Source: Brachycybe producta
Taxonomy: Eukaryota > Arthropoda > Diplopoda > Playtdesmida > Andrognathidae
Reading direction: 5' to 3'
Assembly (NCBI GenBank): GCA_036925085.1
Contig: JAUPFP010000003.1
Span: forward strand, 12,055,675 to 12,119,674
DNA length: 64,000 bases
Positions 21,029-57,645 of this stretch are shown one piece after another (position 1 is the first letter of the stretch; every line of letters starts with the position of its first letter). The notes beneath the pieces are model-generated. The model was not told where the DNA came from. It made no database searches and saw only the letters and a program-made list of their open reading frames with translations. The translations under genes and the position numbers were made by a program.

Positions 21029-21031
21029 CTC

Positions 21032-33613: not shown

Positions 33614-34300
33614 TGTGAGTTTTGACATCAACCAATATTTTATTACCAACCTTTAGATGACATTTTCTACTTTTCGTTTCTTCTCTGAGCAGTATGACAC
33701 CTGCACAGAGAAGATCCGAGCTGTAGAGAGAGCTGGATGGAGATAGATTGAAGTCACTCTTCTGCATGGGGGTGAAATCAATGCAGGAGAGTGGCGGCCA
33801 TCTCTCTCTCTTCCGGTTGATGCTGATATACATCTTCTCCATCGGTATTCCGACTAGAGAAGATGTTGTAGCTGCTGAGAATCGTATAGCTCCTGCCCTA
33901 TGAAACCTCCGGCCTCTGAAGAGAAGTTATTAACATAAAGACATAGAGACAACGCTACTTCTTGTTACAACACTTTTATTCATTCCTTGTAAGAAGTACA
34001 GATACAAGGGTGAATAGTAAAATACTAACTGGAAATCCTCAGGCCCATGATTTGGAATGTATCGCAAAAACAGGCAAAGGAAAGAACTTAGGAACAAAGA
34101 GGAACACGGTCCTTTTATACCTTGGACCTGTGTACACCTGCGAGGTGTAACCAGGTCCAAGTGACCATGGTCCTTTATGTATCAATCCGCCGCTTGGGCA
34201 TGAGTCAGAAAGGTGAGTCAGAGAGGAGGGAGGGACGGTTGAGAGTTGTTTACCCCCCGGGCTATGGTTTTGGCGGGATCACGATTTACAGGGTGTTACA
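33614..34300 (-). repeat. 3' LTR of element A
   Basis: 687 bp, TG..CA ends on the minus strand. Same promoter and poly(A) signals as the 5' LTR. It lacks one base near its 3' end relative to the partner. Confidence 0.92.
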
Positions 34301-34622
34301 TACCCTCCAACTTTGCTTGGAGTACGTCCTCGTACTCCAGTCAAGGGTGGAAGGTTTTCAAGTTACGCAGCGGGGAGACATGGGTGGCTGAGGACTTACC
34401 GTGTACAAAGGTGGTTATGGAAAGGCACTGGCACTGAAGTGTCAGCGCCCCTAAAAATTGAAAAAAAAGGCTGAAAACATGAAACAAAGATAATTAATGC
34501 TCGCTGAGTGGCGAGCCGCTATTGACATTTTAAAGAAACAGGACAGTTGCAACGTATTTTATTTTTTATAAACTTTTTCGATCTCACCACCCCAATGGGC
34601 GGTGACCACACGGTTTTCTAAT

Positions 34623-35645
34623 CTATACCCACGTCGGTTGATTGCATGCACATGTACATGCAGAGACATATCCGTGAAGTGCTTGTAGGGGGTCTGACGG
34701 TGAGTGGAGGAGGTGGCTCCGCAGCCAGGGATGATAGGATTCCCAGGCGGCGACGATCCATCCGTTGTCGAAGCCCCGGAGACTTTCCATGAAACTTCGG
34801 TGGACGGTGGCGTCGGCGGTGATCAGTCGGGCCGGTGGTTGCCCGGTGAGGACACCGTAAACGGCGTCCCACAGGATGGCGGCCTGGTAAGTGGCGCGGG
34901 TCCTCCAAACGATCATTCGGGCAATGCTGTATGCTCCGTTAAGTGGGACTCCCAGGAGACTGTTAAAGAAAGCCTGCTGAAGGGCGCCCAATGCTGGAGT
35001 GATGGGCTGCTCGGCAAACTGGTATATTTCGATGTACCGGGTGGACGGAATTAAGACGGCCATAGAGAGTTGCAGGTAGTATGACATTCCCACAACGTAG
35101 CGCCCTTCCTCTGGTATGTAGAGGCGCGGAAATCCCTCCATCAGGTCGTAGTGCCCGATGTAATAGGTGTTCGCGGGCCGCACCTGTCGTTGCCAGAGTG
35201 CCCAGCAATTATTTAGCAGTCTTTCACATCGTGCTTCCTGACGAAGCGGCCGATATACCGGTAGTCTCCTGGTAGTGACTGTTGATATGCGAAAAGGTTG
35301 TGTCACTTGCGGCAAAGTTAGTACGGGGGTTGCTGAGGCTGCGGCGGTATGGCGAGACGAGGCAGTTGACGTCGTTAGGTCGACGGCGTGCGCTGTGTCG
35401 TCCCCGACTTCCTCGATGCCGAGTTGCTGCGTTGTTGTGTCATCCGAGTCCATCCTAGTGGATGGGTCAGGGATGGCATCGTCCTGGCTTCCCGTTGTTT
35501 CGTTGCACTGTGACATCCTTGTTCTTCCAGAATTGTTTCCGAAGTGCTGGTGACCAGCCTGGCGTTGGCTATATACTTGTGTGTTTCCCGACTTCCCCAT
35601 CGAGGTGTGAAATTCCAGGGTCCCATGGAAATTGTATAATTCCAC
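34623..35645 (-). CDS. Element A third ORF, conserved C-terminal domain of unknown function
   Basis: 340 aa at the position where env or accessory genes lie in other LTR elements. It has no signal peptide or hydrophobic membrane segment, so it does not look like an envelope. The first 135 residues are Ser/Thr/Gln-rich and probably disordered. From about residue 139 (RLLNN) a compact region follows with WQRQVRPANT, YIGHYDLMEGFPRL and RYVVGMS, then AILWDAVYGVL. The same order (WQREVRSANT, YIGHFSLEEGFPRL, RYVVGLS, AVLWDAAWATL) occurs in element B's third ORF. I do not recognise the domain. Conservation between two diverged copies argues for function. Confidence 0.75.
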   Translation of the reverse strand: MELYNFHGTLEFHTSMGKSGNTQVYSQRQAGHQHFGNNSGRTRMSQCNETTGSQDDAIPDPSTRMDSDDTTTQQLGIEEVGDDTAHAVDLTTSTASSRHTAAASATPVLTLPQVTQPFRISTVTTRRLPVYRPLRQEARCERLLNNCWALWQRQVRPANTYYIGHYDLMEGFPRLYIPEEGRYVVGMSYYLQLSMAVLIPSTRYIEIYQFAEQPITPALGALQQAFFNSLLGVPLNGAYSIARMIVWRTRATYQAAILWDAVYGVLTGQPPARLITADATVHRSFMESLRGFDNGWIVAAWESYHPWLRSHLLHSPSDPLQALHGYVSACTCACNQPTWV

Positions 35646-35972
35646 GAAGCTGGCTGGAACTCCAATAAGCCACCCAATTTGTTTGTTATTGGAGGCTCGC
35701 GGGGTGTCGGTTTCTGAGTATTAAACGCCGTTCTTCCACTATTGTTTGTTATTGTTGTCAGACGACCTGGTCCCCAAACGCAGTGTACGAAAGTTTCCCC
35801 ATTGGAATCAGATTCGAGTGGTGAAATGTGAGCAGGGGTGTGTGAATGTTTGTAGTCACACACGTTGTTGTTTGTTTATATTGGTGTGTGTCAGCAAGTG
35901 ACCAATGTGATGATATAAACAACCAAAAAGAAAAAATTTTAGGTTGTATGGGTTGTTGATAGGGTTATTGGT

Positions 35973-38900
35973 TTATTGTGGTGAGGAGGTAGGTTCCTCT
36001 TGTTGTGGGGAGCTGGATTTGTCTTCCCCCTCCAACCCTTGAACAACTGTCCTCAGTTGTTTTGGCTTGATATGTGCAATGTTCACCGTGTCTCGAATCA
36101 ATCTTCCAAACGTATCTTCGTGCTCCAGCTCGAGCACCGTGTCGCTGATGATTTTGGTTACCGTGTAACCATCCCTGTACGAGTAACGTAGTTTCTTGGT
36201 CTCATCAGGCACGATGCGTTGGTCTCGAACGAGTACTGGGTCTCCGATTTTATACGTGTGTGGAGTTTTTCGTCTTGCGTCATAGTACTTCTTCTGTCGC
36301 AAATGGGCCTCGTGCAGGTTGGCCCTTGCGATCTCGACCTCTTCCGTGGCAACCACAGAAGGTGCTGCAGGGTTTGAATCCATAACCTTCGGTAGGAGAG
36401 GTGCCCGATTGTCGATTCGTAGTCGGGCCTCTCTTCCAAACATTAAGCGGTATGGCGAGAACTTCGTTGACGTATGGGTCGCGGTGTTGTAAGCGAAGGT
36501 GGCGGCTTGGAGATGGAAATACCAATCCCGCTGTCCTTTTTCAGGCGTCAGGAGTCTCTTGACGGTCTGCATTATAGTTTTGTTGGTCCTTTCCGCAAGA
36601 CCGTCTCCTTGCGGAAAGTACGCTGTCGTGGTGGCGTGCTTTATTCCCAGCTCGTCACACAGCGCTTGTGTGTCTTTAGCTGTAAAAGGTGTTCCCCGGT
36701 CGGTGATTATCCTCCTGGGCATCCCGATAAGATACACGATCGTATCTTGGAGGAAATTCTTAGTTGTTTTGGCCGACTGGCTGTGCACAGCTCGTGCGAA
36801 ACAGAATCTGGTGGCGTAATCCACTGCCAGGATGATGTGCTTGACACCACCCAGTGATTTTGGCAGGGGACCGATGTAATCGATTCCCCAGCATTCACCT
36901 GGGTCTCCAATTTCCATTTCATGGAGGAACCCGGGCAGCTTGGACTGTGGTGTCTTGCACTTTTGGCATATCTCGCACGTGCGCACATACTTGATGGTAT
37001 CCTGCTTCCAGGTTGGCCAAAAGAACCGTTGGCACACCTTTTCTAATGTCTTATCCTGGCCGAAATGTCCGGCTTCAGGACTATCGTGTAAAAGTCTCAG
37101 AACTTCGGGTACCAGATGTTTGGGTACCACCGTCACTAGCTTGGGGGTTATGCTGCCCTGGTAGACAAGGGCACACAAAACCTCGTCTATGATGACATAG
37201 GTATGGTGAAGCTCGGTACTTGGATTGTTGCGAAGTTCGGTCTTAATCTGTGTCACGTCCGGGTCTCTTGTTTGTTCAACCGACCAATCCCAACGCAAAG
37301 TGACTGCGTAAACCACGCTGTCGTCGAGGTCATCTGGGGTAGCCTGCAGCTTCCAGTCTTCAGGAACGTCCACCGGACTCCGTGAAATGCAATCTGCATC
37401 CACGTGAGTGATGCCGGCTTTGTAGACTACGGTGTAGTCGTATTCCTGGAGCAGTAGCTGCCAGCGACCCAGGCGTCCTTGGAGTCGCTGTGCGGTTTTT
37501 AAGTAGCACAGTGCATGATGGTCGGTGACGATGACAAAGGCTTTGTTAAAGAGATAAGGTCTAAACTTGACGATGCCGTACACCACTGCGAGGCACTCTT
37601 TATCTGTTGTTGAATAGTTTAATTCGGCGTCTCGGAGCACTCGAGAGACACCACCCAGGATCTGCAGTTCCTTAGATGGTGACTGTTGGTAGAGGATAGC
37701 TCCGATGCCGTAAGCAGAGGCGTCGGTGTGCATTTTGATTTCGGCATCTGGGTCGTAAATGGCCAATATTGGCGCGGTGACAAGTTTAGTCTTTAACAGA
37801 GTGAATGCTGCTTCTCTGTCGATCGTCCATAAAAAGGGCAGCCCCTTTTTGGTCATATCCGTGAGTGGTTTAGCGATGTGGGCAAAGTTAACAATAAATC
37901 GCCGGTAGAAACCGGCCATGCCCAGAAATCGCTTCACCTCCTTGACATTAGTAGGCGCCGCTAAGTCGGAGATGGCAACCACTTTCCTCGGGTCTGGACG
38001 CACTCCTTCTTTGGAGATGATGTGTCCCAGGTAGAGGACTTCGTCGTAGCCGAAGAAGCTCTTTTCGGGGTGAAGCTTCAACCCCGCCTCTCTTAGGAGT
38101 CCTAGGACGCAGTCCAACCTTTCCATAAACTGTTCAAAAGTCGCGCCGAATACGATGATGTCGTCTAGGTAGACTAGACAAGTCTCCCATTTGTGGCCAG
38201 CCAAAAGGATATCCAGGGCACGCTGCATAGTAGCAGGAGCGTTACGCAGACCAAAGGGCATCCGATTGAATTCGAACAGCCCACCGGGTGTGATGAACGC
38301 GGTCTTCTCCCTATCCTCTTTGGCGACCTCAAACTGCCAATAGCCGGAGATCATGTCGAGGGTCGCGAAGATCCTCGACCCACGGAGCGAGTCTAAAGCA
38401 TCATCGATTCGGGGTAGTGGGTAATTGTCTGGTTTGGTGATATCGTTCAGGCGTCTATAGTCAATGCAGAAACGCCACTGTCCATCCTTCTTCTTCACCA
38501 GGACTACTGCTGAAGCATAAGGAGACTTGGATGCGCTGGCTACTCCGGATTTGAGCATCTCCTCAACTGTCTTCCGGATGATCTCCCGCTGCTCGGGGCC
38601 ACTCCTTCGGAGGGGTTCCCGCACGGGTGCATGATCGCCAGTATCGATTCGGTGTTCCGTGAGGTTGGTACATCCAAGTTCCGACGTTTCTAGCGCGAAG
38701 ACATCTCGATAGGATCTCAAAAGATCCATTAGAATGCGCCTCTGGCCATTACGTAATCGAGGCCCGAGTTGCATTGCCTCATCGAATTTAGCGCCTGACT
38801 CTTTTGTCATGATCGGGTCGGCGTTTGAAGTGGTCTTTACTTCAACCGTTTCGAAGCAGTAGTCTTTTTGTACATGGGCTATCACTTCGCCGGAGGCCAG

Positions 38901-40760
38901 GGTCAATGGCCCCGTAGTAGTGTTCAGGACCTCGACTAGGAAGCTGTTGCTGTTACGGCCTTGCATAATGCCGGGGGCCACCCAGACCCCCCTCGAGGCG
39001 CGTAGCTTCTCGTCAGGAGAGACCACGAAAAGATCCTGATCTGTGAGGATCCCAGAGGCCTCTACCTCCACTAGTGTTGTCCCCTGGCCAGTGAGCTGCG
39101 TTAGCCCTTTGACTACTAGGTATTCGTCCGGTTGCTGCATAAGCTTGACTTCAATGGGAGCGGTGTCCGACTCCCCAAGAGTGGCTGGCGTGATTTCTTC
39201 CAGAGCACTCTTGACGTACGCCTGAATACTCTGCCTTCGGAGTGCTGATTCAAAAAGGTCGTCTTCTAAGTAGACTTTATTGGTCTGCATAGACACAAGG
39301 AGCTTCAGTGCCCTACCCAGGTCTTGACCTAAGATGGCGTCGGGTGGGCCAGTGATAACCAGCAGGCGGCCCGTGGCAGATTGCTTGGCAATTTCCACAG
39401 TAGCGGAGACTTGCCCTGCCACGGCGATGGTATTTCCTCCAACTCCCTCAATCCTTGGCGGATGAGCCATAGGCTTGATGTTGAGTTGGAGCCGCTTTGC
39501 CAGTGCCTTGGATATTACGCTACCATGAGCTCCGGTGTCTACGAGCATGCGGACCTCTTTGCCATTGATAGTGACAGTGATTTTCGGACTGTCATCACTG
39601 ACACTATGATCTCCGATCTCTTGAGGCATGCAAGTATTCTTCAGTTGTCTATATAGGTCTTTCAGCATCCGACGGCAACAAGGGCGCCCTTGGAGTGAAG
39701 TCCTACCACCTGGAGCCAAGATGGCGACCACCTCATTGGCGGTGCAGCCCAAGGCGGCGGTGGCGAGGTTAATGACCTCAAGGGTACCATGCCAGGTAGT
39801 TAGGTCATCCATTCCCCAAGTTAACTCCAGGATGTAGTTGACCATCATTATTGGCATGCCGGCCGATGCTCTGTCATAATTGGTTGTCTCAGGAGGCATG
39901 TCTGGTACCATGACCACTCTACGGTGGTCCGTATCGGAGGCCTCCCTTGTGGAATCGTAGGTCGGGTGCGCGTACTGATGTTCTGTACGCTCATAGTTTG
40001 TATAGCGCGGTACATAGTACGCGCGCTCTTCAGGTATCGTATATGAACCTGGTACATGTCGTCTGTAGTATGAATCGTAGCAGGGCTCGTACGGCTCTCG
40101 GTGCCCGACAGCGTACGGCGGAGAGTTGTCTGATTCGCTACGATATTGGCGATATCGTGGTGTTGTAGTACATGTAGTAGGTAGTGGTGGCGCAGGCGGC
40201 GGTTGGGTGTCATTATGAATAATCATCATGTGAGTGATCTGTATTTTTAGTTCATTGAGTTGATGCATGATGGTGTTGAGTTTGCAACCATCACACGACT
40301 GTGTGGGAAGTGGATCTGGTAGTAGCGGAGGTCGCTCCTGTTGATATCTGGAGTAACAGGTGGACGACATTATGCGTCGAAATGTACTATTGTTTGTGGA
40401 CCGAGCCGTGCGCTGTGTAGACTGTTGATGCACATCATTACTTTGGGTGCCGCCACTTTGTGGCACCCACCAGGTCCCAGGTTGAATAACTGGATCCATG
40501 GTGGGTCCGAGTGGGACAGCCACACGTGATGATGCGGCGTATTGTGGATCGTATGTCTGTGATGTTGCATAGGCCCTCCACAATGCTGATGGATATATGC
40601 TTCCCCTGGGGTGCAGAAGAGCCCTCCGGGCGGTCCCAGTTAGTCGTGGGTGGGCATCCATTGTATTAAGGCTTGTGCAACACGTAGTGGTCAATGTAAG
40701 TCGGTGTTTTGTAGGTTTGGCCGTTGATCTCGCTGTAGATCGCAGTCTTTTCGTCGGCAA
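35973..40760 (-). CDS. pol: Element A Pro-Pol polyprotein (protease, RT, RNase H, integrase)
   Basis: 1595 aa, uninterrupted. Order: a basic and Tyr/Arg-rich N-terminal part that parallels the start of element B Gag (PYAVGHREPYEPC against PYVGYRERHDRYE); a retropepsin with DTGAHGS (Asp408); reverse transcriptase with YLDDIIVFG (864-867 for YLDD); Ty3-type RNase H (MHTDASAYGIGAIL); integrase H2C2 zinc module starting at His1225; catalytic core Asp1294, Asp1354 and Glu1390 (35 residues between the last two); C-terminal SH3-like tail. All catalytic residues looked for are present. Between the N-terminal part (GMPIM near residue 304) and the pre-protease region, the capsid and CCHC knuckle found in element B are missing. 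It could supply enzymes but should not build particles alone. Confidence 0.9.
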   Translation of the reverse strand: MPTKRLRSTARSTAKPTKHRLTLTTTCCTSLNTMDAHPRLTGTARRALLHPRGSIYPSALWRAYATSQTYDPQYAASSRVAVPLGPTMDPVIQPGTWWVPQSGGTQSNDVHQQSTQRTARSTNNSTFRRIMSSTCYSRYQQERPPLLPDPLPTQSCDGCKLNTIMHQLNELKIQITHMMIIHNDTQPPPAPPLPTTCTTTPRYRQYRSESDNSPPYAVGHREPYEPCYDSYYRRHVPGSYTIPEERAYYVPRYTNYERTEHQYAHPTYDSTREASDTDHRRVVMVPDMPPETTNYDRASAGMPIMMVNYILELTWGMDDLTTWHGTLEVINLATAALGCTANEVVAILAPGGRTSLQGRPCCRRMLKDLYRQLKNTCMPQEIGDHSVSDDSPKITVTINGKEVRMLVDTGAHGSVISKALAKRLQLNIKPMAHPPRIEGVGGNTIAVAGQVSATVEIAKQSATGRLLVITGPPDAILGQDLGRALKLLVSMQTNKVYLEDDLFESALRRQSIQAYVKSALEEITPATLGESDTAPIEVKLMQQPDEYLVVKGLTQLTGQGTTLVEVEASGILTDQDLFVVSPDEKLRASRGVWVAPGIMQGRNSNSFLVEVLNTTTGPLTLASGEVIAHVQKDYCFETVEVKTTSNADPIMTKESGAKFDEAMQLGPRLRNGQRRILMDLLRSYRDVFALETSELGCTNLTEHRIDTGDHAPVREPLRRSGPEQREIIRKTVEEMLKSGVASASKSPYASAVVLVKKKDGQWRFCIDYRRLNDITKPDNYPLPRIDDALDSLRGSRIFATLDMISGYWQFEVAKEDREKTAFITPGGLFEFNRMPFGLRNAPATMQRALDILLAGHKWETCLVYLDDIIVFGATFEQFMERLDCVLGLLREAGLKLHPEKSFFGYDEVLYLGHIISKEGVRPDPRKVVAISDLAAPTNVKEVKRFLGMAGFYRRFIVNFAHIAKPLTDMTKKGLPFLWTIDREAAFTLLKTKLVTAPILAIYDPDAEIKMHTDASAYGIGAILYQQSPSKELQILGGVSRVLRDAELNYSTTDKECLAVVYGIVKFRPYLFNKAFVIVTDHHALCYLKTAQRLQGRLGRWQLLLQEYDYTVVYKAGITHVDADCISRSPVDVPEDWKLQATPDDLDDSVVYAVTLRWDWSVEQTRDPDVTQIKTELRNNPSTELHHTYVIIDEVLCALVYQGSITPKLVTVVPKHLVPEVLRLLHDSPEAGHFGQDKTLEKVCQRFFWPTWKQDTIKYVRTCEICQKCKTPQSKLPGFLHEMEIGDPGECWGIDYIGPLPKSLGGVKHIILAVDYATRFCFARAVHSQSAKTTKNFLQDTIVYLIGMPRRIITDRGTPFTAKDTQALCDELGIKHATTTAYFPQGDGLAERTNKTIMQTVKRLLTPEKGQRDWYFHLQAATFAYNTATHTSTKFSPYRLMFGREARLRIDNRAPLLPKVMDSNPAAPSVVATEEVEIARANLHEAHLRQKKYYDARRKTPHTYKIGDPVLVRDQRIVPDETKKLRYSYRDGYTVTKIISDTVLELEHEDTFGRLIRDTVNIAHIKPKQLRTVVQGLEGEDKSSSPQQEEPTSSPQ

Positions 40761-41039
40761 CCGACACTATCGTACCCTTATACACTGAGTGACGATAGTT
40801 TACCTACGTTTAATAAAGATGGTATCGTTGTTTAAGTGGCTGTGTTGGTGTTGGCGTTTGTTCTTCAGTTGGGTGTGACGACCCCAACTGGTACAGTGTG
40901 TTTGTAAATTCTTTATTGAGTATCAACTTTGGTAAGATCTCTCTCTACACGTGGTATTTGGTGACCACGTGGAGGTTATAAGAATCCCCAAAAGTCTCGA
41001 TGAAGAAACAACAGAGGTACAATGCAATTGCGAGCGTGG

Positions 41040-42989
41040 TACACCACCCAATCGAAATTGCACTGCGGAAAGTGAATTAGAAATGAAGTGTATTGCAGTT
41101 GCCTGAAGAAGAGGCAAGCAATATGAAGAGTAAAGCTAGAGCGCGGTGCCCACACTTTTAGTTTTACTTGAAAACAAGAATGAAGAGTGTGTGTGTGAAG
41201 AACACACAAAGGACAAAAAGTTCAAGATGGCTGAACTTTTTAAATGCACAAACAAAGGAGAAGTTCAAGATGGCTGAACTCTCCAAAGAAGCAAGAAAAG
41301 AAAGCTGTTTTACTTTGAAAGTTTAAAACTTAGGTGCGGTGCCCGCACATCAAAAGTTTTAATTTAGTTTTATTAAAAAAAGTAAAACAGTGTAGAAATT
41401 GAAGTGTGTTCAACAAGCTAAGTGCTTGGTGAACCAGAAGAAATGTTCAGACTGTAGAAATTTTGAGTCCTCACTGCTGGATGGCTCTGGATGAAAAAGA
41501 CAGAGTCAGTGCCCAGTGAGGGACTATGTTGAGTAGAATGAAGAAGTCCGTAGGTGGCGCTGTGGTGGCCACTTCCGGTCAGTTTATTGCAATGTCCAAA
41601 AATTGATGATTGAAAAGTTCCTCCGGGGCACGTTTTTATGGTGGCCAGGAGAAAGACACAAAAAGAGAGAAAATTCAAAGAAAAAGAGAAGTTTTCTCTA
41701 ACAAGAGGAACTCCGCCAGGGGGCGCGTGAGTGCAACCCTCTGGAAGAGAAGAGAAGAGAAGAGGACACAAAAAGATGAGAGAAGGTACAACAATGAGTC
41801 ACATGGAGCGAAAAACCGCTCCGTTGGCGCTTTTTTGAAGAGTGTCCGGTCGATCCAAGATGGCGGCCGGGCTTCAGTGCTGTCCAATGGAGAAAGTTCA
41901 TGTGATGATGCATTGAGGTGATGATGATGAAGAAACTGAAGAACATGACTTGGGACTTAGAGGGTCCCAAGGGAAACACAAGTGTAATAACAAAGAACAA
42001 AGAAAAGGGGGGACAAGAAAGTCCCACGTGGCTAGGAAAAGTGTGTTTTAAGCTTGTAAGCCCCCTAACAATGAAATAGAGTTAGGAAGAATCTTGCTTG
42101 AAAATTAAAGATGAAGAGTGAAGATAATAGGACATTTTAAAAGACACACACGTCCTTTAAAAGCCTATTAATAGGTGGATAGATTAGTAGATGAGATTTG
42201 TTTGCTCATCTCTTAATGAGACTGCAAACTCCTCTCGGAGAGTAAGAAGAATTTGTTTAAAGTGTTGCCCACGTGGTGTGGGTTTCACTTTGAAAATTAA
42301 AGAAGAGTGAAGGTGACAGTGGGTGATTGTAATGGAAACATAAAATACAAAAACACGGACGGAAACACATGTGTCAAAGAACTACTACCAAGGTGTTGCC
42401 CACGTGCTTAATGGATGTCGATGCAGCAGTTCCTTTAACATGTGTCTCTAAGGACAGGACACAGAATCGCGCGGTCGACACGTGGTGTGTGTAGCCACAA
42501 GTCTCTTCCGCGATTCCACAAAAACGGTGCCATGCGGTTGGCTTTGACGTGATCGAGGGCCTCCATACATGATCCCAACATAAAAAGGCGCCACGCGGTT
42601 GGCTTTGACGCTATCGAGGGCCTCCATACGTGGTTCCAACACAAAGGACGCCGCGCGGTTGGCTTTGACGTGATCGAGGGCCTCCATACGCGGTTTTACA
42701 AAGGCGCCACGTGGTCGACTTTGACGCTATCGAGGGTCTCCACACGTGGTTCCAACACAAAGGACGCCGCGCGGTTGACTTTGACGTGATCGAGGGTCTC
42801 CATACGCGGTTTTACAGACAGGCGCCACGCGGTTGACTTTGACGCTATCGAGGGTCTCCATACGTGGCTCCAACATAGAAAGGACGGACGAAGCCTCGTG
42901 AGGCACAATCACGAGACTTAGGACAAAGGACGGCTTCTGTTTACAGGTCGGAGAAGGCAGATGGAGCTATACCCCGCACCTCCACCAAA
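41040..42989 (-). other. Element A long leader (5' untranslated region)
   Basis: About 2.2 kb between the 5' LTR and the pol start. The first ~1.95 kb matches element B's leader almost base for base, apart from a local replaced patch near 42365-42460. Similarity drops sharply at about 41040 (element B about 49970), shortly before the coding part. It contains a primer-binding-like site (reading TGGTGGAGGTGCGGGG on the minus strand, two bases inside the LTR edge at 42987) and the tandem repeat block. Confidence 0.7.
42535..42870 (-). repeat. Leader tandem repeat of element A, alternating 57-60-bp units
   Basis: Six to seven units containing GGAG(A/G)CCCTCGAT, (AGC/CAC)GTCAAAG and CAACCGCG(T/C)GGCG. 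Units alternate between a GATAGCGTC form and a GATCACGTC form, so the real period is a dimer of about 116 bp. Mirrored at 48150-48490 in element B. Confidence 0.85.
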
Positions 42990-43679
42990 TGTGAGCTTTT
43001 GACATCAACCAATATTTTATTACCAACCTTTAGATGACATTTTCTACTTTTCGTTTCTTCTCTGAGCAGTATGACACCTGCACAGAGAAGATCCGAGCTG
43101 TAGAGAGAGCTGGATGGAGATAGATTGAAGTCACTCTTCTGCATGGGGGTGAAATCAATGCAGGAGAGTGGCGGCCATCTCTCTCTCTTCCGGTTGATGC
43201 TGATATACATCTTCTCCATCGGTATTCCGACTAGAGAAGATGTTGTAGCTGCTGAGAATCGTATAGCTCCTGCCCTATGAAACCTCCGGCCTCTGAAGAG
43301 AAGTTATTAACATAAAGACATAGAGACAACGCTACTTCTTGTTACAACACTTTTATTCATTCCTTGTAAGAAGTACAGATACAAGGGTGAATAGTAAAAT
43401 ACTAACTGGAAATCCTCAGGCCCATGATTTGGAATGTATCGCAAAAACAGGCAAAGGAAAGAACTTAGGAACAAAGAGGAACACGGTCCTTTTATACCTT
43501 GGACCTGTGTACACCTGCGAGGTGTAACCAGGTCCAAGTGACCATGGTCCTTTATGTATCAATCCGCCGCTTGGGCATGAGTCAGAAAGGTGAGTCAGAG
43601 AGGAGGGAGGGACGGTTGAGAGTTGTTTACCCCCCCCGGGCTATGGTTTTGGCGGGATCACGATTTACAGGGTGTTACA
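42990..43679 (-). repeat. 5' LTR of element A
   Basis: 690 bp. Carries, in transcription order, an inverted repeat at 43538-43498, TATAAAA at 43496-43490 and a downstream AATAAA near 43355, followed by a long U5-like region of about 340 bp that includes GAGAGATGGCCGCCA. Confidence 0.92.
43490..43538 (-). promoter_or_regulatory. Promoter of element A: palindrome plus TATA box
   Basis: Imperfect palindrome, 19-bp arms (CTTGGACCTG...CAGGTCCAAG), ending one or two bases before TATAAAA. The same arrangement is present in every LTR of this family in the window, including the old solo LTR at 1774. Confidence 0.7.
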
Positions 43680-43709
43680 TACTGTATTAAATATATATTT
43701 TATAATATA

Positions 43710-48029: not shown

Positions 48030-50464
48030 TTTGGTGGAGGTGCGGGGTATAGCTCCATCTGCCTTCTCCGACCTGTAAACAGAAGCCGTCCTTTGTCCTA
48101 AGTCTCGTGATTGTGCCTCACGAGGCTTCGTCCGTCCTTTCTATGTTGGAGCCACGTATGGAGACCCTCGATAGCGTCAAAGTCAACCGCGTGGCGCCTG
48201 TCTGTAAAACCGCGTATGGAGACCCTCGATCACGTCAAAGTCAACCGCGCGGCGTCCTTTGTGTTGGAACCACGTGTGGAGACCCTCGATAGCGTCAAAG
48301 TCGACCACGTGGCGCCTTTGTAAAACCGCGTATGGAGGCCCTCGATCACGTCAAAGCCAACCGCGCGGCGTCCTTTGTGTTGGAACCACGTATGGAGGCC
48401 CTCGATAGCATCAAAGCCAACCGCGTGGCGCCTTTTTATGTTGGGATCATGTATGGAGGCCCTCGATCACGTCAAAGCCAACCGCATGGTACCGTTTTTG
48501 TGGAATCGCGAAAGAGACTTGTGGCTACACACACCACGTGTCGACCGCGCGATTCTGTGTCCTGTCCTTAGAGACACGTGGGAACGAACTTTTGTCTGCT
48601 GACCGCTTAGCACTCGGAAAGTGGACAACCGTTTGGACACACGTGTTTCCGTCCGTGTTTTTGTATTTCATGTTTCCATTACAATCACCCACTGTCACCT
48701 TCACTCTTCTTTAATTTTCAAAGTGAAACCCACACCACGTGGGCAACACTTTAAACAAATTCTTCTTACTCTCCGAGAGGAGTTTGCAGTCTCATTATGA
48801 GATGAGCAAACAAATCTCATCTACTAATCTATTCATCTATTAATAGGCTTTTAAAGGACGTGTGTGTCTTTTAAAATGTCCTATTATCTTCACTCTTCAT
48901 CTTTAATTTTCAAGCAAGATTCTCCCTAACTCTATCTCATTGTTAGGGGGCTTACAAGCTTAAAACACACTTTTTCTAGCCACGTGGGACTTTCTTGTCC
49001 CCCCTTTTCTTTGTTCTTTGTTTTTACACTTGTGTTTCCCTTGGGACCACTATGTCCCAAGTCATGTTCTTCAGTTTCTTCATCATCATCACCTCAATGC
49101 ATCATCACATGAACTTTCTCCATTGGACAGCTCTGAAGCCCGGCCGCCATCTTGGATCGACCGGACACTCTTCAAAAAGCGCCAACGGAGCGGTTTTTCG
49201 CTCCATGTGACTCATTGTTGTACCTTCTCTCATCTTTTTGTGTTCTCTTCTCTTCTCTTCTCTTCCAGAGGGTTGCACTCACGCGCCCCCTGGCGGAGTT
49301 CCTCTTGTTAGAGAAAACTTCTCTTTTTCTTTGGATTTTCTCTCTTTTTGTCTTTCTCCTGGCCACCATAAAAACGTGCCCCGGAGGAACTTTTCAATCA
49401 TCAATTTTTGGACATTGCAATAAACTGACCGGAAGTGGCCACCACAGCGCCACCTACGGACTTCTTCATTCTACTCAACATAGTCCCTCACTGGGCACTG
49501 ACTCTGTCTTTTTCATCCAGAGCCATCCAGCAGTGAGGACTCAAAATTTCTTCAGCCTGAACATTTCTTCTGGTTCACCAAGCATTTAGCTTGTTGAACA
49601 CACTTCAATTTCTACACTGTTTTACTTTTTTAATAAAACTAAATTAAAACTTTTGATGTGCGGGCACCGCACCTAAGTTTTAAGCTTTCCAAGTAAAACA
49701 GCTTTCTTCTCTTGCTTTCAGGAAAAGTTCAGCCATCTTGAACTTCTCCTTTGTTTGTGCATTTAAAAAGTTCAGCCATCTTGAACTTTTTGTTCTTTGT
49801 GTGTTCTTCACACACACACTCTTCATTCTTGTTTCTAAGTAAAACTAAAAGTGCGGGCACCGCGCTCTAGCCTTACTCTTCGTATTGCTTTCCTCTTTTT
49901 CAGGCAATTGCAATACACTTTCATTTCTAATTCACTTTCCGCAGTGCAATCTTGATTGGGTGGTGTACCACGCTCGAGGTTGTATTGTACATCTGCTGTT
50001 TCTTTATTGAGGTTTTTGGAATTCTCGTAACCTCCACGTGGTCGCCAAATACCACGTGTCGAGAGAGATCCTTCCAAAATCTGACGCTCAATAAAGAACT
50101 CACGACGCCACACCAGTTGGGAACCAAAACTCGTCACACGCCCAACTGAGAACACGATCAACACGACACAACCATCACCACACTAACGGAGTGAACGGCC
50201 ACTTCGTTATACACGTCACAAGCTTAGGTAATCTATCGTTACTCAGTGTATAAGAGTACGATAGTGTCGGTTGCCGACAAGCACTAAATTACCGACGCAC
50301 AGTGACAACACCGACCTACAAACTGAACGAGTCCCATCATACTGGAACCGAAAAGTATAGCTCAGAGTGTACTCGAGAACCCTCGGAGCTGCACACAACG
50401 ACTTGGACTTCGCCGGACTCGTTCATCACCGCACATTCACATTACACAAGCCACTTCATTAATC
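48030..50464 (+). other. Element B leader
   Basis: 2.4 kb without a long ORF. Nearly identical to element A as far as about 49970, then diverged. Many CACGTG words. Contains the tandem repeat at 48150-48490. Confidence 0.7.
48150..48490 (+). repeat. Leader tandem repeat of element B
   Basis: Six clear units of 57-60 bp in the order of the two alternating forms, with the inverse arrangement seen at 42535-42870. Placed about 120 bp after the primer-binding site, where packaging signals often lie. Confidence 0.85.
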
Positions 50465-52846
50465 ATGGCTACCTCACACGACAATACGGGGTCCCTGTCT
50501 GATCACCAGGGTTCGCACGAAGATCTGTTGGAAGTACCCGTGACTACTGATGTGACACCACCGCCGCGGCCGACTGGGGCCGAGTTTGACCACCTGTCAC
50601 AACAAGTGGCTGCACTCTCGACTCGTATGTCTCAGTTCATAGACGACCGATTCACACCGAATCGACCGACTACACCACGGCGGACAACACGCACACACCG
50701 ACTTCGCGACGATGACTCGGACGCCTCTTCAGCCCCCTATGTTGGCTACAGAGAGCGTCACGATCGTTACGAAAGACATTACACACCGCACACACGTCAT
50801 CTACCGCGTAACCCTGACTGGCAACAACAAGGGCAGTCAGATGATCCGCGTCACAGAGATGAGCGTGCGGAAATACCGATTACGACACGTGCTGATTCTC
50901 CTCACTCGCTTGTCCGGGTTGCACGTAGCGGTCGCCGCTCGATACCCCCGGAACAACAGCCTCACCAAGGAGCGACACAAGGCACTTCAGTTTACGCGCC
51001 ACGTTTTCCACCGCAAGGGGTAGGTCTGATGCCGGCTGGAATGCCAAACGTCCAGGATGGCATCTATCGACCAACCCCCAGAGAACCCTCCGTGGAAGAG
51101 TTCAATAAGAAATACAGCGGTCGTCACCCTGCCGACTCGATCCAAAAATTCAACGGATTGACAGGTTTCCGTCCCTTCCTGGAAGAATTCGAGGAAGTGG
51201 CACACCTGTACGGTTGGAAAGACCACCACAAGGAGGAATACATCACGGGGTGTTTCACTGGGGCCGCCCGTACGTGGCTGAGTAAACTGAGGTATGAGCT
51301 TCAGGACATTCCTTGGCCAGCACTGAGAGTACAGATGGTAGATACGTTCGGGAAGCCGAACGAACTGGCCATCTTGGAGAAGAAGTATACAGAGATGCTC
51401 CAGAAGGAAGGTGAGAGTACACAAGCTTTCATCTGGGAGTTTATGATACTCGGCGACCGAGTTTACCCGCAACTTGACGATCAGCTGCGTATAAGCCAGT
51501 TGCGCCGCGCTCTACATCCCACCATACAGAACGCCGCGCATCACGCATCTACGACGTCGTTCAAGGACTTCGCAAACGCCGTCCTCAATATGGAGGTGGT
51601 CTTGCTGTCCTTGGATAAATGGCCGACGGAACCGAAACCCGCAGCTGATTCACAGTCGGGTAAAGGAGCATCGAAGACCGACCAGGAGCCGGCGGCAGCC
51701 GCCAGCCCTAAAGACAAAACACACCGGTCTAGGCATGATAAAAAGCCTAGTCAGACTGCTGCCACCAATTCCAACCGACACTCTGCAGCGGACACCCAAC
51801 CAGAGACCACTCGCACGTTCGACAAGAGTAAGTCGACGTGTTATAATTGTGGCAAATTGGGGCATTTCGTCCGTGAGTGTCGGCAACCAAAGAAGAAGGT
51901 TGCAATCAAGCAGTTTGGAGAGCCGGTTACCGACTATGACATCAAAGGAGAGGTGCCCGAAACGGATATCATCACCGAAGACGGCGTTGAGTTTGCTCTA
52001 ATAAGAGTGGCGGGACAAATCCGCCGGATTCCTCTTCCAGCAGCAGACTCAGCCGCCGGAGCGCCTACTCCTGATAAACCCGACAACGACAGTTCTGACG
52101 ACTCTGAGGATATACCAGTCAAGGTGCTCGACCGGGCTCCTGCACATAAATGGACCCCGGACGATCTAATCGTTTGGCAGGACACGCTCGACGTCCTTAA
52201 ACAATCCGTCAAGGAGATTGGGTGCCGTGAAAATAAAACAATAGCCATCATGGCTCCCGGAACCCAATCGCCGACGAAGGGCCACTCCTGCTGCCGAAGA
52301 CTAATGACAACGGTGTATGAGCAGCTGGTAAGCAGCTGTTCACCTCAAGAAGTCGGAGACTATGATGCCAGCGACAAGAACCCGCGCATCGCCGTCACGA
52401 TCAACGGAAAGAGTATACGGATGCTCGCGGACACCGGAGCTACGGGCAGCGTTATCACCATTGAACTCGCGCAGGAACACAAGTTCGAAATCGAGCCTGT
52501 GTTAATCCCACCCAACATTCAGGGTGTGGGAGGCCAAAGGATCACCGTGGTGGGGCGACTCGCCGCGACGGTCCAGCTAGGCCCCCACGCTGTGCGAGGG
52601 CACTTACTAGTGATTACCGGCCGGCACGAAGCCATCTTAGGCCGAGATCTAGGCCGGACTCTGCACTTAGCTGTGTCCATGACAACAAACAAAGTATACG
52701 TGGAGGACGATCTCTTCGAATCCACACTCCGACAAAAATGCATTGAAGCACACATCGGATGGGCTCTGGGAGAAACTTCCGTAGAGGCCCCTGGCAAATC
52801 TGCCAGCACCTCTAAGGAAAACCTCGAAACTCCACCCCGTAAGTGA
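50465..52846 (+). CDS. gag: Element B Gag-protease polyprotein
   Basis: 793 aa in one frame. The N-terminal 200 residues are polar and rich in Arg, Tyr and Pro. A gypsy-type capsid (retrotrans_gag) follows at about 220-390, with FRPFLEEFEEV, AARTWLSKLRYEL and YTEMLQKEGESTQAF. Then a Lys/Ser-rich linker, one CCHC knuckle (CYNCGKLGHFVREC from residue 459), an acidic stretch, and a retropepsin with ADTGATGS (Asp656) and AILGRDLG. It ends shortly after protease (NLETPPRK). It should be able to form particles and process Gag, but cannot copy or integrate DNA. Protease and flanking parts match element A only at a moderate level by eye. Start chosen as the first in-frame ATG (50465). Confidence 0.88.
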   Translation: MATSHDNTGSLSDHQGSHEDLLEVPVTTDVTPPPRPTGAEFDHLSQQVAALSTRMSQFIDDRFTPNRPTTPRRTTRTHRLRDDDSDASSAPYVGYRERHDRYERHYTPHTRHLPRNPDWQQQGQSDDPRHRDERAEIPITTRADSPHSLVRVARSGRRSIPPEQQPHQGATQGTSVYAPRFPPQGVGLMPAGMPNVQDGIYRPTPREPSVEEFNKKYSGRHPADSIQKFNGLTGFRPFLEEFEEVAHLYGWKDHHKEEYITGCFTGAARTWLSKLRYELQDIPWPALRVQMVDTFGKPNELAILEKKYTEMLQKEGESTQAFIWEFMILGDRVYPQLDDQLRISQLRRALHPTIQNAAHHASTTSFKDFANAVLNMEVVLLSLDKWPTEPKPAADSQSGKGASKTDQEPAAAASPKDKTHRSRHDKKPSQTAATNSNRHSAADTQPETTRTFDKSKSTCYNCGKLGHFVRECRQPKKKVAIKQFGEPVTDYDIKGEVPETDIITEDGVEFALIRVAGQIRRIPLPAADSAAGAPTPDKPDNDSSDDSEDIPVKVLDRAPAHKWTPDDLIVWQDTLDVLKQSVKEIGCRENKTIAIMAPGTQSPTKGHSCCRRLMTTVYEQLVSSCSPQEVGDYDASDKNPRIAVTINGKSIRMLADTGATGSVITIELAQEHKFEIEPVLIPPNIQGVGGQRITVVGRLAATVQLGPHAVRGHLLVITGRHEAILGRDLGRTLHLAVSMTTNKVYVEDDLFESTLRQKCIEAHIGWALGETSVEAPGKSASTSKENLETPPRK

Positions 52847-54263
52847 CGACGAAAGCAACGGCCACCCACGCTGTCAAGAAACCAAACGCGACGAAAATAA
52901 AACAATAATTCACCAGTGTTTATTTCATGACTATGGAAATAAACACCAGCAACCATCAAATATCAACAATAGAAGAGCGGGAGGAATTTGAGAATTGTTG
53001 TGTTAAGAAACAACTGAGGACAGTTGTCAAGAGGTGGGGGAGGGGATAAAAGGAACCCCCCAACGAATAAACAACCCCACAGCATCAACAACCCCTCTAA
53101 ACACTCTCAAATAACTCCCAAAACTCTACAAAATTCATACAACTTTAATTTTTGAAACACTTCTAAACTTTTCAAAATGGCCGCCAATATTTACATACTG
53201 GCAACCATTTCAAACATGCAATAAACTACACCGGAACCACGTGGCCTTCACAAACAACTGTCAACCACGTGGTACACCTGGGAAAAACGCCGAAGGCTAG
53301 TCAAGGACGTTCAGAAGAAAAATCAAGAGCCATAAAAGGGTCAGCAAAAGAAAAACACCGTGCTCCCCTTTATTATGGATGGACGTCATTGACCATGCTG
53401 TTGACAGTAGAAGGATAGAAACTTCAAAGAGACAATTGCTCTGGGGGCCAGACCAATGCACTGGGACTTCAAAGAAAAAAAAACAAACAACAAAAACTGC
53501 TGGCCATAAACAAATAAAAAAGGAAGAAAATCAGTTTTGAGGATTTTGTGAGAGCGGACACCTTCAATTAAAAAATAAAATTGAAGAACCTGTCACCCTC
53601 TCAATTAAGATCGAATTGTGGGACACCAACTCCTGCCCCACTCCCCCCTAAAAATAATAACAAACAGCAAGGTACATTAGTAACCTTGCTGACCTATTCT
53701 TTCCAAAAAAAAAAGCATTAAGGAAAAGAAGGGGAGGAAGTTAATGGGCAACTTCACACCTCGGTGTGAAATAAAATAACGGCCCTTCTCCCTCGAGATT
53801 CCTTAGTCCTTTTGTTTATCTAAAAATAATAAACAGGACCGACTCTGATAAGAATTAGATCAACACCTCTCACATCTAATGTCGGTGGGACAACCCCCAC
53901 CCCCAATAAATAAAGTCGTGAAGGAACCAATTAGAGTAAGGTGTCTTATTCTAAAAGGGGCCGGCCCTTCTAACTTTTAAAATTAAATAAGAAAAGTGAC
54001 CAAACTTGGTCAATTACCACTTGATTTGCTCTCTTCAAAGAAGCACTCGTTTTTGTTCATCTCTTTATATCATCAAATCCTCAATCTACTTCTGTGCCAA
54101 GTTCCAAATCTTAATTTCGAACTTCTTCAGTTTTTGTTGTTAATCAAAAGCTTGAGTGCCACCTTCAAGCCTTTGAACTCACGTGCAGTGCATCAGACCT
54201 TCAGAACTTTTTAGACCTCTTGAAATAATAACAGAGTGATCGGGGACCGATTTCTGTTATTAT
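52847..54263 (+). other. Non-coding gap of element B where pol is expected
   Basis: 1.4 kb of A- and C-rich sequence with stops in all frames and no RT, RNase H or integrase motif. It is not a decayed pol in any frame I checked. May serve as the leader of the third ORF. Confidence 0.6.
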
Positions 54264-56504
54264 TTGGAAGTAATCACCAGCAGCGGGACTTTTGAAAAAG
54301 TAAGAACTTTTAAACTCTTGAGAAATATGCCAGGTAGAGGCTCATGGAGAGGAGGCAGAATGATGTCTGCCTCTTCTAGTGAAGATGAGACGGAGAGTGG
54401 AACGGCGGGGACCGCTGAACCCCTCTCTCAATCTACCTGCCAGCTACAAAGGGCGGGCGCCGCCAGTGCGCCAATAACAAGAAGAGAGTCGCCAAACACA
54501 ATAGATAGGCGCCGCACCTCCTCCGAACCGGAGAATTTTCACCGGCGTGGGGAGAAGCGCCTAAAAGCAAGCTTCAAGCGACCTGCCAATGTCGGGCGCG
54601 AAGGGAAGCCTGCTGCTCCAAGCAGCATCGTCCCCTTCGACGTCACGACATCAAAACACTACTGGGAGGAGCGGGAAGACCGCATCGATATTAATACAAT
54701 GGCATGGGGGGTTAACCAGGCGTTCCGCGATAGCATCGCGCCTGGTCAACCCATTCCGGGTGGAGCTGAAGCAAGAGGGAAGCGTGGGGGAGGTGGATCT
54801 GTGCCCTCCCCCCTCGAAGACCTCCACTTGGAGATGCAGAGGGAGGCTGCCCTTCGCCAGGCAGCCAGAGATAAAAAGGAAGGGGAGGACAATCTGGCGT
54901 ACCTCCGTGCGGTTTGCGCCCGCCTTGTCGAGCTGGGCTTACCGTGTACGGCGCACCTCCCGAAGGAGGAGCTCCTGCGAATCGAGGCCCGACTCCAAGA
55001 AGCCGCCCGAGTTACGTCATCGGCCACGTCATCACCTCCATCCTCAAACTCGCCAGCAACCCTGACAACTGGCCTCTCCACATCTCCTTCTCCACCCATA
55101 ACGCCACCAGAGCCTTTCCAACACTGCTCACCGGTGCCGTCAATCACTCCGCCGCCTCCTCCTCATACACCATTATCGTCACCACCAACCTCCCGATGTG
55201 CCACGCCTCCACGCAGCGAGGCCGCCACACCAACTCCGACTCCAAAGCTACCTTCCATAGTGGTGGTTCCCCAACCTGTTCGTGTTCAGGTTCCCACTGG
55301 GGCTCGCCCCAAGGAGCCTCAACAGTCCTACAGGGGCCACCACTCTTCTCGAGACTCTCTTCAATGGCCACAACCACGTCGCTCTTCGCCACGTGGTTCC
55401 CATCTTTCGCCCCGACGCCGACCCGACGGAAGAAGTCAGCAGGAACAACGTGGTTCCTCTGGACGCGGCCCTCCGCCGCGTAATAACTTCGACCCAAGGG
55501 TCAGGCAAGACCTACAGGATCACCGAGTCCAACTGGACCGCGACCATCGCTATGAAACTCGGGGCCCTCCTACTTGGGTCCCGCGTCGCTCTCCTCCTCC
55601 GCCACCTCCGGGCCGCCCTTCTGGACAACCTACGCCTACACCTTTGATGCCGCCACCTTCCGCAGAGCGTGCCGCGTTCTTGAATAAACAGAAGGCCATC
55701 ACAAACCTTCTGCAAGACGTCATGCGACAGGGAGGTGACCCCATGGAAGCACTGGGCCGTGCACCAGGAAGTGCCAAGCCACTGGAGGCGCTGAGCAGGA
55801 AGTCGGCATCGAAGCGACTACGTCAGCGGGCCCGCGATATGGCCCGGTCCGCCTTGCGCCATGCCAGGCCTATCACGGGCGCATCAGTTTCTTTGGAACC
55901 TGCGGCTCCAACACCAGCCCGACCAGCCGCACCGCCCACTGTACCCCATGCCGGGGCTACTCTGGGGCGGTTACCGCTGGATCATCCGTTCCGTGCAGCC
56001 ACCTCCGGCGAGAGGTTGCTCAACAATCGGTGGGTCACTTGGCAGCGCGAAGTGCGCTCTGCCAACACCCTTTACATAGGACACTTCTCTTTGGAGGAAG
56101 GGTTTCCCCGTCTGGACCTCCCTCCCCGGGAGCGATATGTCGTGGGACTCTCCCGCCTAACAAGTGTCCTCATCACCATCGTCTTCCCAAGAAGACGGAT
56201 TGTTGAAACCACCAGTTTCGCCGGAGATGCCATCGATGAAGCCACGGAAGCCCTTTTGGGAGCTTTCGTCAACTCCGTCTTTAGACTGCCAGCTGGACAG
56301 ACGTTCCGTACCAGCCGTCACTACATTCCGGAACCGGATCCTCGTTACCGAATCGCCGTCTTATGGGACGCCGCTTGGGCTACACTGTACAACAAGTGGT
56401 CCTCCCGCAAGATTATCGGGGACCGGGACATCTTCAATATCTTCCACCGGGATCTACCTGACGACCAGGGACAATGGCTGTCTGCCGCATCCAGCTACCG
56501 ATGA
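54264..56504 (+). CDS. Element B third ORF, Arg/Pro-rich with conserved C-terminal domain
   Basis: 746 aa. The N-terminal part has Arg/Gly- and Ser/Glu-rich stretches; about 250-330 is Pro/Ser/Thr-rich; about 350-460 is Arg/Ser-rich (RRSSPRGSHLSPRRR) and could bind nucleic acid. From about residue 582 it has the domain shared with element A's third ORF (WQREVRSANT, EGFPRLDLPP, RYVVGLS, AVLWDAAWATL). No signal peptide or membrane span. Much longer than the element A version (340 aa), the extra part being N-terminal. Internal ATG codons near 54330 are alternative starts. Function unknown. Confidence 0.75.
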   Translation: MEVITSSGTFEKVRTFKLLRNMPGRGSWRGGRMMSASSSEDETESGTAGTAEPLSQSTCQLQRAGAASAPITRRESPNTIDRRRTSSEPENFHRRGEKRLKASFKRPANVGREGKPAAPSSIVPFDVTTSKHYWEEREDRIDINTMAWGVNQAFRDSIAPGQPIPGGAEARGKRGGGGSVPSPLEDLHLEMQREAALRQAARDKKEGEDNLAYLRAVCARLVELGLPCTAHLPKEELLRIEARLQEAARVTSSATSSPPSSNSPATLTTGLSTSPSPPITPPEPFQHCSPVPSITPPPPPHTPLSSPPTSRCATPPRSEAATPTPTPKLPSIVVVPQPVRVQVPTGARPKEPQQSYRGHHSSRDSLQWPQPRRSSPRGSHLSPRRRPDGRSQQEQRGSSGRGPPPRNNFDPRVRQDLQDHRVQLDRDHRYETRGPPTWVPRRSPPPPPPGRPSGQPTPTPLMPPPSAERAAFLNKQKAITNLLQDVMRQGGDPMEALGRAPGSAKPLEALSRKSASKRLRQRARDMARSALRHARPITGASVSLEPAAPTPARPAAPPTVPHAGATLGRLPLDHPFRAATSGERLLNNRWVTWQREVRSANTLYIGHFSLEEGFPRLDLPPRERYVVGLSRLTSVLITIVFPRRRIVETTSFAGDAIDEATEALLGAFVNSVFRLPAGQTFRTSRHYIPEPDPRYRIAVLWDAAWATLYNKWSSRKIIGDRDIFNIFHRDLPDDQGQWLSAASSYR

Positions 56505-56907
56505 GGCCAGGTCCGGCGGGATTACCCCCCCGTACGGTTCATGGACCCAGGATCCTCCCCACCCTCCGCAGCAGGGATAGCTGCGCGCCACATGTACTCA
56601 TGTGGTTGCCACCCATCCGGGTGGCATTATCGAAAAATTTATAAAAAAATAAAATACGTTGCAACTGTTCTTTTCTTTTTAGATTTCAATAGCGGCTCGC
56701 CACTCAGCGAGCATTAATTATCTTTGTTTCATGTTTTCAGCCTTTTCCAATTTTTAAGGGCGCTGACACTTCGGTGCCAGTGCCTTTCCATAACCACCTC
56801 TGTACACGGTAAGTCCTCAGCCACCCATGTCTCCCCGCTGCGTAACTTGAAAACCTTCCACCCTTGGCTGGAGTACGAGGACGTACTCCAAGCAAAGTTG
56901 GAGGGTA

Positions 56908-57595
56908 TGTAACACCCTGTAAATCGTGATCCCGCCAAAACCATAGCCTGGGGGGTAAACAACTCTCAACCGTCCCTCCCTCCTCTCTGACTCACCTTTC
57001 TGACTCATGCCCAAGTGGCGGATTGATACATAAAGGACCATGGTCACTTGGACCTGGTTACACCTCACAGGTGTACACAGGTCCAAGGTATAAAAGGACC
57101 ATGTTCCTCTTTGTTCCTCAGTTCTTTCCTTTGCCTGTTTTTGCGATACATTCCAAATCATGGGCCTGAGGATTTCCAGTTAGTATTTTACTATTCACCC
57201 TTGTATCTGTACTTCTTACAAGGAATGAATAAAAGTGTTGTAACAAGAAGTAGCGTTGTCTCTATGTCTTTATGTTAACAACTTCTCTTCAGAGGCCGGA
57301 GGTTTCATAGGGCAGGAGCTATACGATTCTCAGCAGCTACAACATCTTCTCTAGTCGGAATACCGATGGAGAAGATGTATATCAGCATCAACCGGAAGAG
57401 AGAGAGATGGCCGCCACTCTCCTGCATCGATTACACCCCCATGCAGAAGAGTGACTACAATCTATCTCCATCCAGCTCTCTCTACAGCTCGGATCTTCTC
57501 TGTGCAGGTGTCATACTGCTCAGAGAAGAAACGAAAAGTAGAAAATGTCATCTAAAGGTTGGTAATAAAATATTGGTTGATGTCAAAAGCTCACA
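56908..57595 (+). repeat. 3' LTR of element B
   Basis: Same as the 5' LTR apart from isolated changes (for example ACGTAAAGG versus ACATAAAGG). Palindrome 57047-57087, TATAAAA 57089-57095, AATAAA 57228-57233. Confidence 0.92.
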
Positions 57596-57645
57596 CAACT
57601 TTTGCCACAAAAGTGGGGGTAGACTTTCGTTTTTGGAAATTTCGT

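Follow-up and report, generated by a model that had tools for sequence, protein, structure and literature searches.

Non-autonomous long terminal repeat (LTR) elements are usually viewed as parasites of a complete partner. The wheat systems Wilma-Sabrina-WHAM (PMC9744471) and Cereba-Quinta (PMC11302176) include Gypsy elements with Gag and protease only, or Gag only, which are proposed to donate Gag to their partner, the primer site and parts of the LTRs matching in Cereba-Quinta (PMC11302176). BARE2 of barley, with a disrupted gag and its other genes intact, presumably uses the Gag of its relative BARE1 (PMC9744471); pol-less families of Athila in Arabidopsis have frames that stay open under purifying selection, and they recombine with others (PMC2410132); and the most abundant non-autonomous families among deer-mouse endogenous retroviruses are without obvious coding capacity (PMC10089650). 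The ePVCVL2 element of rice lacks the capsid and complements ePVCVL, their noncoding regulatory region being 99.3% identical; recombination homogenises this common region, and no autonomous partner was found (PMC5491270). The bipartite florendoviruses, whose components are also named A and B, are called unique among viral retroelements by their authors (PMC4241990). Here we analyze two LTR elements of an animal, hereafter A and B, which lie in a 64,000-nt stretch of Brachycybe producta DNA (GCA_036925085.1, contig JAUPFP010000003.1, positions 12,055,675-12,119,674 of the forward strand; hereafter the window). Neither of these abundant types is complete, and they probably represent two lineages of one reciprocal two-component LTR retrotransposon system of the Ty3/Gypsy type.

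Element A carries enzyme genes and element B carries Gag; a further type, hereafter B2, has the B-type Gag without its pre-protease and protease domains and accounts for 5 of the 30 gag loci fetched from the genome. The features of the two insertions in the window are given below (TSD, target-site duplication; ORF, open reading frame; RT, reverse transcriptase).

33614-43679, minus strand: element A, whole insertion, with TSD TACT at 33610-33613 and 43680-43683
42990-43679, minus strand: 5' LTR of A
42969-42987, minus strand: candidate primer-binding site of A, TGGTGGAGGTGCGGGGTAT, two bases past the LTR
40662-42989, minus strand: leader of A, mostly near-identical to that of B, except for a diverged block of 116-bp tandem repeats
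35973-40661, minus strand: Pol ORF of A from its first ATG, with Gag-N-terminal remnant, pre-protease domain, protease, RT, RNase H and integrase
34623-35645, minus strand: third ORF of A, 340 aa
34301-34610, minus strand: 3'-terminal region of A common to A and B, with a purine-rich stretch adjoining the LTR
33614-34300, minus strand: 3' LTR of A
47342-57595, plus strand: element B, whole insertion, with TSD CAAC at 47338-47341 and 57596-57599
47342-48029, plus strand: 5' LTR of B, 688 nt
48030-50464, plus strand: leader of B, its first ~1.9 kb from a pool common to A and B2
48032-48050, plus strand: candidate primer-binding site of B, its letters identical to the A site
50465-52846, plus strand: Gag-protease ORF of B, 793 aa, with Gag N-terminus, capsid (Retrotrans_gag), CCHC, pre-protease domain and protease
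52164-52860, plus strand: stretch missing from B2 copies (pre-protease and protease)
54264-56504, plus strand: third ORF of B, 746 aa, likely starting at the internal ATG 54327, with a proline-rich N-terminal part and a C-terminal domain homologous to the third ORF of A
56601-56907, plus strand: 3'-terminal region of B common to A and B
56908-57595, plus strand: 3' LTR of B, 688 nt

The domain content of the two elements is complementary. Pfam places protease, RVT_1, RNase H and the integrase domains H2C2 and rve in A, in the order protease-RT-RNase H-integrase, and finds no gag domain there; in B it recognizes Retrotrans_gag, zf-CCHC and protease, with no match for RT or integrase. A cross-search of A against B with tblastn likewise matched only the protease region and part of the third ORF, without any sign in A or B of the half that it lacks. 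These results agree with the original prediction, made from the letters of the window, that A has the intact enzymes without capsid or CCHC and that B has capsid, CCHC and protease without RT or integrase. The absence of gag from A needs some refinement, since its N-terminal ~250 aa retain a weak match to the Gag N-terminus of B (score 79, reached by none of 500 shuffles, the best of which scored 74), while the same comparison found no match to the capsid and nucleocapsid of B. A therefore lost capsid and nucleocapsid rather than the whole gag, and it looks like a former Gag-Pol element stripped of these two parts.

The LTRs of ~688 nt with TGT..ACA ends and the 4-bp TSDs, which are perfect as predicted (TACT for A, CAAC for B), fit the Ty3/Gypsy type, to which we would assign both elements from their LTR ends, TSDs and order of Pol domains; the presence of gag and pol within one element, another mark of this type, is found in neither A nor B. 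A protein-database search with the Pol of A scored 7,984 candidates, and the best 120 of 1,330 matches that were listed include one named Ty3-I Gag-Pol polyprotein, the best named ones coming from a pseudoscorpion. The Gag of B had no match at 1e-5. The primer site common to the two elements is presumably a match to tRNA-Ala; scanning the window with Rfam and for tRNAs gave 0 matches.

Sequence conservation between A and B is strongest at their ends. The 5' LTR and leader are 94% identical over 2,957 aligned nt, most 150-nt windows lying at 97-100%, and the last ~310 bp together with the 3' LTR are 96% identical; within the leader, identity drops a few hundred bases ahead of the ORFs. The 116-bp tandem repeats (42439-42816 in A, 48203-48580 in B) depart from this pattern, for those of the window copy of A have diverged from 13 other elements and their block is only 75% identical to that of B. 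The predicted near-identity of LTRs, primer site, most of the leader and the 3' end holds at 94-96% overall, this block being an exception. The coding parts in common are clearly diverged, as had also been proposed: the protease regions are 66.7% identical in nucleotides and 48% in amino acids, and the third-ORF domains 39% in amino acids. Silent differences amount to 69% between the protease regions and 66% between the third-ORF domains, and the saturation of silent sites in the protease indicates that the genes of A and B parted long ago.

To evaluate how these types are represented in the genome, we searched the 295 Mb of the same assembly, listing the best 40 DNA matches or the best 150 short-protein matches per query (101-aa queries for RT and capsid), so that all genome-wide copy numbers are lower bounds. 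The 30 RT loci fetched, one of which is the window copy, are all of A type, 29 over the full 4.2 kb and one (L023) over 3.5 kb, and the 30 gag loci fetched, again with the window copy among them, are all of B or B2 type. Among the 150 RT matches listed, 118 have at least 96% identity, 69 of these lying in frames of ~1,570-1,600 aa and 90 having the third ORF of A ~3.18 kb downstream, as counted with the 93 of 150 listed third-ORF matches that show ~98% identity or more. The 150 capsid matches listed are all at 100%, 87+3 in frames of 839/846 aa and 35+2 in the B2 frames (629/602 aa), and the pre-protease region of B has at least 150 copies, all listed matches being at 97% or more. Reading frames are mostly open: 21 of the 30 fetched RT loci have an open frame from end to end of the stretch fetched, the 25 fetched B gag loci are all in full frame, and the B2 loci have frames of 629 aa (four) or 602 aa (one). 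None of the 57 Gag-protease copies scored, with frames of 839 or 846 aa, contains stops, and the same is true of 20 of 29 Pol copies, the other nine having one stop each.

A and B are thus two multicopy populations and not two odd copies, so the count of copies by type that had been proposed as a check shows both to be abundant. The possibility that the interior of A or B in the window results from an assembly error is hardly credible, because numerous loci, on many contigs, have these structures (30 RT and 30 gag loci), with perfect TSDs in two other copies that were read whole. Separately, third-ORF matches of A type at 76-84% identity, in many of which the frame is short or interrupted by stops, suggest that the lineage also spread at an earlier time.

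The genes retained by the two populations are constrained. Pooled NG86 dN/dS ratios with bootstrap intervals were computed for 30 RT loci, 25 B gag loci and five B2 loci, and lean to young copies because top-scoring matches were sampled. In A (30 loci) the values are 0.081 (0.031-0.187) for protease, 0.123 (0.056-0.225) for RT, 0.100 (0.054-0.172) for integrase and 0.179 for RNase H, with 0.276 over all and 0.687 (0.474-0.987) for the Gag-N-terminal remnant. In B (25 loci) they are 0.010 (0-0.060) for capsid, 0.179 for the Gag N-terminus and 0.109 (0.043-0.232) for the whole Gag-protease. The comparison of Gag between B and B2 gives 0.159, and the third ORFs give 0.175 in A (3 copies) and 0.187 in B (5 copies), which are small samples. 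All bootstrap intervals taken exclude 1. The enzymes of A and the capsid of B are under strong purifying selection, and the proposed dN/dS check comes out far below 1 for both. This bears on the view that one recent autonomous family gave rise to A and B by accidental deletions, which then spread by chance without selection: copies such as B2 do form by deletion and multiply, but the 69% silent differences between the proteases of A and B imply an old split, and the genes are open and selected, which makes such an origin very improbable. On the same grounds of saturated silent sites and selection, we rejected the notion that A and B are single-copy deletion products.

The leader behaves differently from the genes. 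Over 800 nt compared in 14 copies, any two leaders differ by 0-4 bases, except for the window copy of A (38-40 bases), which was excluded as an outlier from the main figure; in this set, copies L076-L081 were assigned to type by LTR spacing, with which the coding matches agree. The mean distance is then 0.207% within types and 0.197% between them (1,202 of 2,000 label shuffles as large), and with the window A leader included it is 0.747% within and 0.971% between (590 of 2,000 shuffles). One A copy (L069) and one B copy (L005) are identical over the 800-nt stretch, and the LTRs of seven copies, which differ by 0.15-2.04%, are not sorted by type. Three leader haplotypes occur on A, B and B2 alike, in 10/20/7, 9/21/9 and 5/6/3 copies, respectively (chi2 1.05, p 0.90; 150 leader matches listed), as expected if the RNAs share particles and recombine. 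In one A copy and one B2 copy, the two LTRs agree at 688 of 688 positions and the TSDs are perfect, which indicates recent movement. The similarity of the leaders would therefore reflect present-day exchange and not descent alone, and its simplest explanation appears to be template switching when RNAs of A and B occupy one particle. Two properties of bipartite systems are present: complementary essential genes on two replicons, and a common noncoding cis region kept alike by exchange.

We then looked for copies joining gag and pol. The 150 leader matches listed were typed by their downstream genes, using the full sets of 150 RT and 150 B pre-protease matches and an RT distance range of 1.5-9 kb, with counts equal to those of an earlier run on part of these lists: 36 are A, 54 B, 24 B2, four carry other gag frames and 32 are untyped. 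None of the 118 typed loci has gag and pol in one element, which was another check that had been proposed. Among the 150 RT and 150 capsid matches listed, only two pairs lie within 15 kb of each other, ~13 kb apart on opposite strands, one of them being the window pair; RT and B protease-region matches (150 listed each) yield the same two pairs within 15 kb and a third on C17, considered below. The 16 LTR pairs among the 40 LTR matches listed are all accounted for by the coding matches inside them as A (6), B (4), B2 (5) and a double B2 (1). The last of these, a 13.3-kb pair at C1:4855848-4869453, was considered as an autonomous copy and rejected, for it holds two B2 gags in inverted orientation. 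Two long frames are recorded as separate observations. At C17:3148043 a B-type capsid (100%) lies in a frame of 1,916 aa, which was considered as a Gag-Pol copy and may still be one, although it has no match among the A or B protease-region or RT matches listed; on C11, A-like RT (C11:3206624) and protease (C11:3205220) lie within one open frame of 5,498 aa.

The following account would connect these observations. B would make Gag (capsid and nucleocapsid) fused to protease and so build the particles, A would make protease-RT-RNase H-integrase and supply these enzymes in trans, and both RNAs, which have LTR, primer site, leader and 3' end in common, could thereby be packaged, copied and integrated. 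The RNAs of A and B would meet in one particle, where template switching would keep swapping their 5' ends, so that the cis signals would stay common while the genes diverge to saturation. Pol without a Gag part could enter the particles by RNA binding, or by pairing of the A and B protease domains. The original prediction had already assigned enzymes to A and particles to B through their shared ends, an assignment that our results support; common packaging, template switching, supply and movement in trans and the route of Pol entry are what we infer from sequence. B2 would be a third, more dependent member of the system. In its strongest form, towards which our judgment tilts only slightly, the proposal is that of an obligately bipartite (with B2, tripartite) animal LTR retrotransposon, in which there would be no autonomous copy, and gag and pol would have resided on separate chromosomal replicons long enough to saturate silent sites, bound by a common recombining 5' end, Pol being perhaps drawn in by pairing of the protease domains that are kept under selection in both halves.

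Several points weigh against this proposal. The absence of joined copies among 118 typed loci leaves a 95% upper bound of 2.5% of typed loci for rare combined ones, and of the 32 leader matches in 150 that are untyped, 18 belong to a diverged 'other' leader class and 12 to the commonest haplotype, these 12 being possibly copies outside the listed coding matches. On C17, an A-type RT (C17:4038602) and a B protease region (C17:4048231) lie on the same strand, the RT ahead of the protease region by 9.6 kb, an order and spacing that fit an A and then a B element head to tail and not one Gag-Pol frame. Some bootstrap intervals are wide, as for the protease (0.161, 0.045-0.916) and the nucleocapsid (0.065, 0-0.597) of B. 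Finally, there is a relative, hereafter family C, which may be autonomous and may act as helper for both elements if cis signals are shared.

Family C comprises 10 loci among the 150 RT matches listed, with 92% identity over the 101 aa of RT and an identical frame of 2,287 aa at each; an eleventh match, C35:826333, has a frame of 467 aa. The ten loci in the assembly (G000) are given here by contig and position.

C1:8259046
C2:5418362
C5:7123442
C6:5636005 and C6:9200465
C13:439958
C15:1529842
C20:2179012
C23:776941 and C23:2908872

The family C frame exceeds that of A by ~690 aa, which suggests Gag and Pol in one frame. Family C, or an unseen element, could be a third, autonomous element that gives Gag and Pol to A and B, both being non-autonomous parasites whose own genes are leftovers or are kept via cis-preference; known plant systems do retain an autonomous partner (PMC9744471, PMC11302176). 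Yet none of the 150 leader matches listed has family C within 12 kb, and among matches on contigs holding C, no third-ORF match (150 listed, down to 76%) and no listed A protease-region match (down to 63%) lies within 15 kb of it. A 180-nt sample at the expected position of a shared leader matches neither A nor B. Family C thus looks like a separate lineage, although the capsid and B protease matches listed, all at 97-100%, are uninformative on its Gag. It is also rarer than A in the same RT list (10 versus 118 loci), and pure parasites would not need dN/dS values of 0.01-0.12 on the genes that they retain. We consider a third-element helper unlikely on this evidence. The outcome that would have undone the original prediction, a wealth of autonomous copies of which A and B would be single-copy deletions, was not found among the matches listed, the rarer family C being a caveat to this.

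Integrase acts on LTR ends and RT acts on the primer site; B shares both of these with A and exchanges leaders with it. The dependence could still be one-sided, with A borrowing the Gag of B and B taking Pol from several elements, and this would not be obligate both ways. Another RT-bearing relative, family C, does exist in the genome, and supply of pol in trans has been proposed for Athila (PMC2410132). Given the ends and leaders that B has in common with A, we regard such an arrangement as quite improbable, and a reciprocal system of A and B remains the reading that we favor.

The window contains other features. A solo LTR at 60202-60906 (minus strand) is 81.6% identical to the A/B LTR and is an older relative; the other 39 of its 40 listed matches are at 89-94% identity. 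This solo-LTR family was considered as the LTR of family C and rejected, since among the 40 listed matches those on contigs holding C are all more than 15 kb away from the ten C loci. Pfam gives no match for the third ORFs of A and B, and a protein-database search with that of A found none at 0.01. The cores of both resemble the CE-clan (Ulp1/adenain-like) fold in predicted models of low confidence, so that other folds are possible, and the columns that are invariant in the A/B alignments include no Cys that could serve as the catalytic residue of a CE-clan protease. For an envelope, as in errantiviruses and retroviruses, Pfam and the low-confidence models gave nothing in favor. The long proline-rich N-terminal part of the B protein is absent from A. 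A long array of a ~10-bp tandem repeat occupies 15039-15640 and beyond; ORF pieces at 18704-23421 are presumably from the integrase of another LTR element (minus strand) and a transposase of hAT/zinc-finger type (plus strand), and further ORFs we take to be transposon-like and short-chain-dehydrogenase-like.

Foamy viruses make Pol without Gag, which enters particles by other contacts, and carry both genes on one genome; A resembles them in having Pol without a Gag part, but A and B split the genes over two elements. The Gag donor of BARE2 also carries pol, while B, the Gag donor here, has none. Both A and BARE2 (PMC9744471) are proposed to rely on the Gag of another element. Unlike the wheat systems, in which the enzyme-bearing partner is autonomous and equipped with gag (PMC9744471, PMC11302176), A has lost capsid and CCHC. 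The same loss separates A from Athila, whose potentially autonomous pol-bearing members all have gag, even if pol-less elements with open, selected frames and recombination are common to both (PMC2410132). The open-licence literature searched yielded no reciprocal pair of pol-only and gag-only LTR elements in an animal. Selection maintains the genes of A and of B, and the two draw on one recombining pool of cis sequences, so that comparison can test how a division of labor between mobile elements originates and how stable it is. The pair shows how a segmented retroelement could arise, and it raises the question of how a Pol that lacks a Gag part gets into particles.

Plant pararetroviruses have neither LTRs nor integrase. 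A and B are like ePVCVL and ePVCVL2 in forming a complementary pair in which both members keep a very dissimilar protease domain next to an alike noncoding region (PMC5491270); unlike these low-copy fossils, they are animal LTR elements with integrase, in high copy, young and with open frames under selection. They equally recall the florendoviruses in their complementary domains, their near-identical noncoding region (intergenic in those viruses) and their many copies, while differing as LTR retrotransposons from plant viruses reconstructed from endogenous sequences (PMC4241990). In A and B, the reciprocal plan known from plant pararetroviruses is seen in animal LTR retrotransposons that encode integrase, have open frames and occur in many copies.

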